NCBI GenBank assembly: GCA_021813435.1
Contig: JAKAKR010000014.1
Span: 34,889-98,888 of the forward strand
DNA length: 64,000 bases
Direction: 5' to 3'
From: Nanobdellota archaeon
GTDB lineage: Archaea > Nanobdellota > Nanobdellia > Woesearchaeales > UBA9642
Position numbers and translations under genes: made by a program. The notes below the pieces were generated by a model, which worked only from the letters and a program-made list of their open reading frames with translations, was not told where the DNA came from and did no database searches. Positions 33,971 through 53,482 of the stretch are shown in pieces. Position 1 is the first letter of the stretch, and the number at the start of each line of letters is the position of its first letter.

Positions 33971-34005
33971 GATTTTTAAATAAGAACAATTCTCAATACA
34001 CTAAT

Positions 34006-34078
34006 GGGGCTGTGGGGTAGCTTGGTATCCTTCGCGGATGGGGTCCGCGCGACCCGGGTTCGAATCCTGGCAGCCCCA
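34006..34078 (+). tRNA. tRNA-Pro(GGG)
   Basis: GGGGCTG...CGCGG-ATGGGGT-CCGCG...GGGTTCGAATCCTGG-CAGCCCC-A. Confidence 0.93.
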
Positions 34079-34102
34079 ATAGATTATACATCACTATATG
34101 TA

Positions 34103-34176
34103 GGGGTCGTGGGGTAACCTGGTTAGCCTACAAGGTTCGGGGCCTTGTGATCCGAGTCCGAATCTCGGCGACCCCA
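34103..34176 (+). tRNA. tRNA-Pro(CGG)
   Basis: GGGGTCG...CAAGG-TTCGGGG-CCTTG...GAGTCCGAATCTC-GGCGACCCC-A. Confidence 0.92.
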
Positions 34177-34260
34177 TTGTTTTTCGAATGCTGCAACAGT
34201 GTTGCACATTCACTTTTTACGAGATTTTTTGTAAAAATCTCGGACGTATCTCGGCGACCC
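34162..34260 (+). mobile_element. tRNA-Pro-associated ~86-bp element, copy 1 (between duplicated tRNA 3' ends)
   Basis: ATCTCGGCGACCC at 34162-34174 repeated at 34248-34260; between them hairpin GAATGC-TGCAAC-AGT-GTTGCA-CATTC and the 36-nt core (34206-34241) shared with 53292-53327. Confidence 0.6.
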
Positions 34261-49655: not shown

Positions 49656-49772
49656 CGGGTCGGACGAGATTTGAACTCGCGGCCACTGCATTGCTTTCAA
49701 AGTTTTTGAGATTTCAAAAACCCTGTTTTTTGTTAAAAGTGCAGTGCTCTAACCAGGCTGAGCTACCGACCC
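49656..49772 (-). tRNA. tRNA-Lys(TTT) with ~42-nt intron
   Basis: GGGTCGGTAGCTCAGCCTGGTTAGAGC-A-CTGCA-CTTTTA[intron]A-TGCAG...CGAGTTCAAATCTCG-TCCGACCC-G; intron has GTTTTTGA-AATC-TCAAAAAC hairpin. Confidence 0.9.
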
Positions 49773-49808: not shown

Positions 49809-49910
49809 CGCCCTGGCCGGGATTCGAACCCGGGTCGAAGCCTTACTATGATGATTGTTTTTGGCAATCTCTCGACAGGGCTTCATGATAGGCCACTACA
49901 CTACCAAGGC
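49809..49910 (-). tRNA. tRNA-Asp(GTC) with ~29-nt intron
   Basis: GCCTTGGTAGTGTAGTGGCCTATCATG-AAGCC-CTGTCG[intron]A-GGCTT...CCGGGTTCGAATCCCGG-CCAGGGC-G. Confidence 0.9.
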
Positions 49911-50346: not shown

Positions 50347-50471
50347 CCCTTCGTAGCTCAATGGTTAGAGCGCATGGCTGTAGAAGTCGCACGACGAGGC
50401 CCTACAGGGCTATGGATGAATTGCGATCAGCCGTAACCATGAGGTTCCCGGTTCGAGTCTGGGCGAAGGGA
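50347..50471 (+). tRNA. tRNA-Tyr(GTA) with ~50-nt intron
   Basis: CCCTTCG-TA-GCTC...CATGG-CTGTAG[intron]A-CCATG...CCGGTTCGAGTCTGG-CGAAGGG-A; TTTATAAAC TATA ~20-30 nt upstream. Confidence 0.9.
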
Positions 50472-53265: not shown

Positions 53266-53375
53266 TAGGGCTACCCGAATTCGGACCAGAAGAGATTTTT
53301 ACAAAAAATCTCGTAAAAAGTGAATGTTCGACTTCGTCGAAGCATTCTTCTATGGGGCTACCCGGATTCGAACCG
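53266..53375 (-). mobile_element. tRNA-Pro-associated ~87-bp element, copy 2
   Basis: Tail TAGGGCTACCCGAATTCGGACCA (53266-53288) is 19/23 identical to the tRNA-Pro(TGG) 3' end starting at 53353; 36-nt core 53292-53327 is identical (reverse complement) to 34206-34241; hairpin at 53322-53347. Confidence 0.6.
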
Positions 53376-53426
53376 GGATCGCAAGGTCCCAAACCTCGAA
53401 GGCTAACCAGGTTACCCCATAGCCCC
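53353..53426 (-). tRNA. tRNA-Pro(TGG)
   Basis: GGGGCTATGGGGTAACCTGGTTAGCCT-TCGAGG-TTTGGGA-CCTTG...CCGGTTCGAATCCGGG-TAGCCCC-A. Confidence 0.93.
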
Positions 53427-53482
53427 ATCATCGCAAAAGAAAAGGTGTTTATTTTTAAATCTTTTGAAAGCGCAGAGAGATG

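Follow-up and report, generated by a model that had tools for sequence, protein, structure and literature searches.

The 64,000-nucleotide stretch of DNA analysed here (the window) forms part of the 1.41-Mb assembly of a Woesearchaeales archaeon (genome G000). An intact tRNA-Pro(CGG) gene in the window is followed by a short unit that runs from a hairpin with a bulged C (HP1) through a T-run spacer to a T5/A5 hairpin (HP2) and then to a tail that repeats part of the tRNA. A preliminary description of this DNA had reported the exact recurrence of ATCTCGGCGACCC, and this proved right to the base: the first copy, in the 3′ end of tRNA-Pro(CGG), occupies 34162–34174 and the second 34248–34260. The two hairpins and the 36-nt block at 34206–34241 are likewise present as it stated. 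Its further claim, that the block recurs near 53.3 kb behind a different tRNA-Pro, holds for the minus strand, where the host is tRNA-Pro(TGG). The features of the two units, with the evidence for each, are as follows.

34103–34176, plus strand: tRNA-Pro(CGG), host gene, intact (ARAGORN; Rfam RF00005, 51.6 bits)
34186–34211, plus strand: HP1, GAATG-C(bulge)-TGCAAC-AGT-GTTGCA-CATTC (sequence; covariation, 0/500 shuffles; fold)
34212–34220, plus strand: spacer ACTTTTTAC, a T-run followed by AC (sequence)
34221–34241, plus strand: HP2, GAGATTTTT-TGT-AAAAATCTC, 10 bp with C34220/G34242 (sequence; HP2 covariation)
34248–34260, plus strand: tail, second copy of the tRNA-Pro(CGG) 3′ end, ATCTCGGCGACCC (sequence; repeat test)
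53352–53427, minus strand: tRNA-Pro(TGG), host gene of the second copy, intact (ARAGORN; Rfam)
53322–53347, minus strand: HP1 of the second copy, GAATG-C-TTCGAC-GAA-GTCGAA-CATTC (sequence; covariation)
53313–53321, minus strand: spacer of the second copy, ACTTTTTAC (sequence)
53292–53312, minus strand: HP2 of the second copy (sequence; HP2 covariation)
53268–53287, minus strand: tail of the second copy, GGTCCGAATTCGGGTAGCCC, the tRNA-Pro(TGG) 3′ end with 2 mismatches (sequence; shuffle test)

The tail match at tRNA-Pro(CGG) scored 27, compared with a maximum of 22 among 200 shuffles, and a separate repeat test over all units gave p = 0.003. HP1 and HP2 of this unit together fold as DNA with −17 kcal/mol (z = −6.3). 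The unit at tRNA-Pro(TGG) (53292–53347) carries a 20-nt tail from its own host, GGTCCGAATTCGGGTAGCCC compared with GGTTCGAATCCGGGTAGCCC in the gene (score 30, shuffle maximum 24), which the preliminary description had missed. The third proline tRNA, tRNA-Pro(GGG) at 34005–34079, is without a unit. Rfam searches of the window and 18 loci at the gathering score returned tRNAs only, and the units match no family. Rfam also detected three long-intron tRNA genes in the window (49656–49772, 49809–49910 and 50347–50471) that ARAGORN did not call.

A family of hairpin units in Woesearchaeales

A search of the own and related genomes for the shared core, as proposed in the preliminary description, uncovered a family, and 64 distinct units were collected in the Woesearchaeales, an order of DPANN archaea. 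With MAFFT, the HP1 types together aligned too poorly to support a covariance model, and the family search used a generic HP2 scan instead. Units are usually 55–90 bp long, reach about 190 bp and contain no gene. The earlier term 'cargo-free' suits both copies in the window; it does not extend to those other members that attain ~190 bp or flank a whole tRNA gene.

Structure is kept in the family while hairpin sequence is free to differ between units. In eight units of the own genome, pairing holds in 98.8% of stem cells, the bulged C never varies, and 12 of 20 pairs are altered on both sides; none of 500 shuffles reached the covariation score. HP2 covaries likewise across 19 distinct spacer–HP2 forms. 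In nearly all units, a T4–6 run and a final (T/G)A(C/T) make up the spacer. The last spacer base and the base at position 3 of HP2 covary, C going with G and T with A. Spacer and HP2 5′ arm also show near mirror symmetry (T-run / xAY / NN / RAc / T-run, as at 34213–34241 of the window), for which a T.A-T triple helix or a guide-and-cleavage pairing is possible.

The commonest core, allowing three or fewer mismatches, has a patchy distribution and was found in 22 of 359 genomes of the order, which are draft assemblies of many contigs and probably mostly metagenome-derived. The reversed pattern gave no match in the same 359 genomes, and the core was absent from 178 genomes of other orders of the class. 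Two scans of viral contigs for the core yielded no relative.

The own genome was sampled as 360 kb of contigs C7 and C9, 20 kb of C15 and the window. In this genome, the core occurs four times exactly and once with three mismatches. Two of the exact copies form a tandem of 87-nt units downstream of tRNA-Leu(CAG), with GAATCCTCTCCCTCGCAGTTTTCT closing each unit. The variant copy lies behind a protein gene ending ...FDGQRNKKILIKIIGE-stop, and after this copy comes ...FDGQKNKKVLIKIIGE-stop. With other HP2 sequences, the genome has the same architecture behind tRNA-Met(CAT), where three units stand in tandem, and behind a tRNA-Arg and tRNA-Ala(CGC); a tRNA-Leu has such a unit in antisense. Genome G346 holds five copies. 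In G282, an 18-kb interval between two inverted cores was considered as a candidate composite element, and the HP2 scan of it detected only the two end copies.

Several further loci resemble the family in part. Longer units of ~160–240 bp, with an extra conserved segment left of HP1, lie at tRNA 5′ ends in G048 (L174, L218–L220), one pair of them near a tyrosine integrase on contig C20. Inserts of 34 and 42 nt, lacking HP1 and HP2, stand behind tRNA genes of the own genome (L007, G000:C1:55576; L013, G000:C15:20042) and are followed by an 11–12 nt copy of the tRNA 3′ end; perhaps they are remnants or another family. At L085 (G100:C47:43900–45900), an orphan unit with no tRNA gene before it is followed by a copy of a tRNA 3′ end.

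Targets, introns and empty sites

In 25 of the 64 units, the target's end is significantly repeated in direct orientation, and the repeat begins no more than 20 nt from HP2. Copies tend to bear the tail of the gene that hosts them, a point that the preliminary description had proposed to tabulate. The repeated ends come from the 3′ side of tRNA genes (Leu, Pro, Met, His, Thr, Ser, Arg and others) and, in G048, from the 5′ side; among protein genes, rpoA2 and others are repeated at the 3′ end, and CDC48 and a GH57-like gene at the 5′ end. The protein genes bear putative names assigned from their translations. The start of the GH57-like gene is present three times, and these copies enclose two units whose cores differ. 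The repeats measure 11–61 nt, whereas a target-site duplication would have a fixed length. Within tRNA genes, the target sites are the T-loop, the anticodon stem and the exact 5′ or 3′ end. The HP2 scan was also run over 420 kb of whole stretches, comprising the 360 kb of the own genome and other stretches, without regard to where tRNAs lie inside them. Every match adjoins either a tRNA gene or the one GH57-like gene, and there were 0 matches in an 800-kb Markov control.

In a second group, the unit lies antisense inside a tRNA gene and HP2 abuts the 5′ exon, e.g. ...GGTTCGAA. The antisense segment ends ...CGAAAG and is followed by TCC, so that the junctions (TTCGAA, then the segment to CGAAAG, then TCC) fit splicing at a bulge–helix–bulge (BHB) motif. 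In-silico removal of the segment produced clean calls of tRNA-Val(TAC) and tRNA-Lys(CTT). Six more loci (L040, L044, L064, L067, L076 and L087) were called after removal with a further intron or an uncertain isotype, and L047, L059, L062, L068, L086 and L089 gave no tRNA call using a simple join. In the folded tRNA-Val precursor RNA, a 4-bp UUCG/CGAA helix is bordered on one side by a 3-nt bulge and on the second by a larger internal loop; the helix and bulge are as expected near a BHB motif, and the second side is looser. The antisense segments may be spliced out in vivo. In their junctions, the antisense units resemble archaeal BHB tRNA introns, from which they differ in that the intron holds an element also found outside introns. 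A third group has HP2 exactly at the tRNA terminus, and about 15 of the 64 units have neither a repeat nor a clear tRNA junction.

The preliminary description had also called for a comparison of related tRNA loci, and empty sites exist. In G239, a sister species of G058, the tRNA runs directly into the next gene without an insert; in G058, a 99% identical tRNA is followed by 35 nt, HP1, spacer, HP2, an exact 32-nt copy of the tRNA end and the same next gene. No tail copy follows tRNA-Pro(TGG) in any of four relatives (G001 to G004), and among the loci compared between G000 and G001 only tRNA-Ala(CGC) is occupied in both. The block is probably an insertion, not an ancient structure. Chance assembly joins seem unlikely, as both flanks are the end of the same gene.

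At four protein loci, the two copies of the gene end differ at 37 sites, of which 28 are third codon positions (p = 1.7e-7), and 26 of the 31 changed codons are synonymous. One protein-gene copy thus probably derives from a diverged homologue, because the differences fall mainly at third codon positions. Drift of a useless target-site duplicate as the source of the protein-gene tails is ruled out by this codon-position bias. At CDC48, each copy keeps its own upstream Shine–Dalgarno-like sequence, and relatives of the same family start MA- or MP-, weakly nearer to the remnant copy than to the gene.

The composite tRNA-Ala(CGC) locus of G000 (L010, C7, about 194.4–194.9 kb) gives the clearest example of copies that would stem from different lineages. 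The native gene is split in the anticodon stem by 247 nt, and its halves, GGGCAAG...GTTCC and GTTCGC...CTTGTCCA, give a tRNA-Ala call when rejoined; the insertion point is uncertain by a few bases, and ARAGORN calls an Ala tRNA from some neighbouring joins too. The insert contains a divergent inverted element, a complete tRNA-Ala (GGGCTGG...CCAGTCCA) and a sense element. This inner tRNA-Ala is of a different acceptor type, that found in G003. The locus is thus a composite with inverted copies.

Candidate mechanisms and known systems

Anatomy, covariation and recurrence, together with the repeats, the tRNA association, the empty sites and the divergence of the two copies, are probably best explained if the block is a copy of a non-autonomous, gene-free, hairpin-ended insertion element of Woesearchaeales that leaves its target gene intact. 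The HP2 end would meet the target at the junction, and the targets are mostly tRNA genes and some ends of essential protein genes. An insertion would be kept where the target still works: the distal part of the gene may be doubled, intact on the HP1 side and a leftover past HP2; the element may lie antisense in a BHB-type tRNA intron and be cut out by the splicing endonuclease; or it may abut the gene end. A carried replacement tRNA may be a further route to a surviving insertion. The element would move as DNA, its folded strand recognised by an enzyme supplied in trans, and recombination inside a homologous gene end would bring in one copy from another lineage. This scheme postulates the enzyme, the strand and the sequence of events, as well as an intermediate that may be circular or linear. 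Neither movement, nor a circular form, nor an autonomous relative was seen. PF00589, Cas1, Y1_Tnp and reverse transcriptase were searched in carrier genomes: no family is present in all, and G346 has no match to any of the four. Cas1 was found in three of 12 genomes tested and in neither G000 nor G346; PF01797 (Y1) was found in seven of the 12 and is absent from five carriers (G346, G001, G004, G281 and G058).

The units might instead be trans-mobilised att cassettes of tyrosine-integrase elements of the SSV/pNOB8 type, in which the tail would be an attP with the gene end and integration would swap that end. Such an origin seems unlikely to us, even with the direct repeat of the gene end, the diverged copies expected for attP and attB, and real integrases beside two own-genome tRNAs in its favour. 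Sugahara et al. proposed, from one locus, that tRNA introns are gained via the att sites of an integrating element (PMC3293823), which also speaks for it. As in SSV/pNOB8-type elements, the gene end, a tRNA 3′ end in their case, is restored and a partial copy remains at the far side; those elements, however, have an integrase and one tRNA-specific att, whereas here one hairpin unit meets many unrelated targets. Specificity does not reside in the tail, because an identical HP2 serves unrelated target sequences. No integrase lies in the unit, and G346 has its five copies with no PF00589 match. The two integrase-linked tRNA loci of G000, read downstream, show no such unit; at these loci (G000:C15:111936 and G000:C7:205950), the integrase genes directly downstream of the tRNAs appear to belong to ordinary integrated elements. 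From the preliminary description's proposal of tRNA-gene integration, a recurrent tRNA-tied insert with own-host tails and empty sites survives. The tyrosine-recombinase element that such integration implies is unsupported because the units are gene-free, G346 lacks PF00589 and no viral relative was found, and the proposal is too narrow for an element also at protein-gene ends and antisense in spliceable tRNA introns.

A Cas1/casposase-like reaction is improbable on the present evidence. The target, towards the 3′ end of a tRNA or protein gene, would be duplicated by a staggered cut, and the unit would be a mini-casposon bounded by ends of its own. Casposons of family 2 integrate into tRNA genes and those of family 1 into 3′-distal parts of protein genes, and the A. 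boonei casposase uses a tRNA-Pro 3′ end, requires TCAAATC (T-loop) and makes a 14–15 bp duplication (PMC6614799). This target preference matches the units, as does the direct target repeat, and repeated insertion at one site would yield the tandem arrays at tRNA-Met, tRNA-Leu and the GH57-like gene. Casposons, however, carry casposase and polymerase genes and should leave a duplication of fixed length, whereas the 55–190 bp units are gene-free, with no cas1 inside, and have repeats of variable length. The sparse occurrence of Cas1, with its absence from G000 and G346, and protein-gene copies that are diverged homologues rather than drifted duplicates also count against a casposase.

That the unit is not mobile at all is equally improbable. 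It would then be a structured RNA, or an element that processes or terminates tRNA transcripts, copied locally along with the gene end; HP1 with the T-run looks like an intrinsic terminator, and the strong tRNA association and the presence in transcribed introns would suit such a role. Units occur, however, in both orientations and at protein-gene 5′ ends, most tRNAs of the same genome are without one, relatives have empty sites, copies have diverged, and a foreign-type tRNA lies inside a split tRNA.

IS200/IS605-like single-strand transposition, with HP1 and HP2 as end hairpins and the spacer end (TTTAC, TTGAT) as a cleavage site read by the HP2 arm, would fit the bulged hairpins, the spacer ending (T/G)A(C/T) and its covariation with HP2, but it is very improbable given that Y1_Tnp is missing from the five carriers named above and that the flanks of four Y1 loci examined have no HP1–spacer–HP2. 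Members of that family are not known to duplicate a gene end.

Other systems share single traits with the units. MITEs and IS200/605-derived palindromic elements are also short, non-coding, structured, multi-copy and patchy; the units differ in having two unlike hairpins rather than terminal inverted repeats, variable gene-end duplications rather than a short fixed target-site duplication, and no known autonomous partner. Integron attC cassettes likewise place a folded bulged hairpin beside a gene end and form tandem units, but here no conserved R box is discernible by eye, the outer stems vary freely, and the gene ends on either side are homologous copies from a single gene. IStrons (PMC4227781) and eukaryotic introners are mobile elements made harmless through splicing, as the present element may be; here there is neither a self-splicing ribozyme nor a spliceosome, and the antisense copies fit an archaeal BHB intron. 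None of the known systems compared from the open-access literature has the anatomy found here; an earlier description elsewhere is possible.

Implications for tRNA introns and split tRNAs

Tentatively, the insertion element may represent a new class of minimal archaeal mobile element that targets essential genes and survives by rescuing them, a wider claim that we hold as a possibility. Rescue would take the form of a replacement gene end or a whole tRNA brought in, or of the element turned spliceable tRNA intron. If this were true, archaea would have their own equivalent of introners, and tRNA introns and split tRNAs would have a concrete source.

The origin of archaeal tRNA introns and split tRNAs is an open question, and the published proposal found that connects an integrating element with intron gain draws on one locus (PMC3293823). 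In the present family, a single recognisable DNA unit is seen outside tRNAs, at their ends, within introns and flanking a replaced tRNA, across many species, and gain events would therefore be datable and testable. A parasite of ~60 bp might thereby afford to land in indispensable genes.
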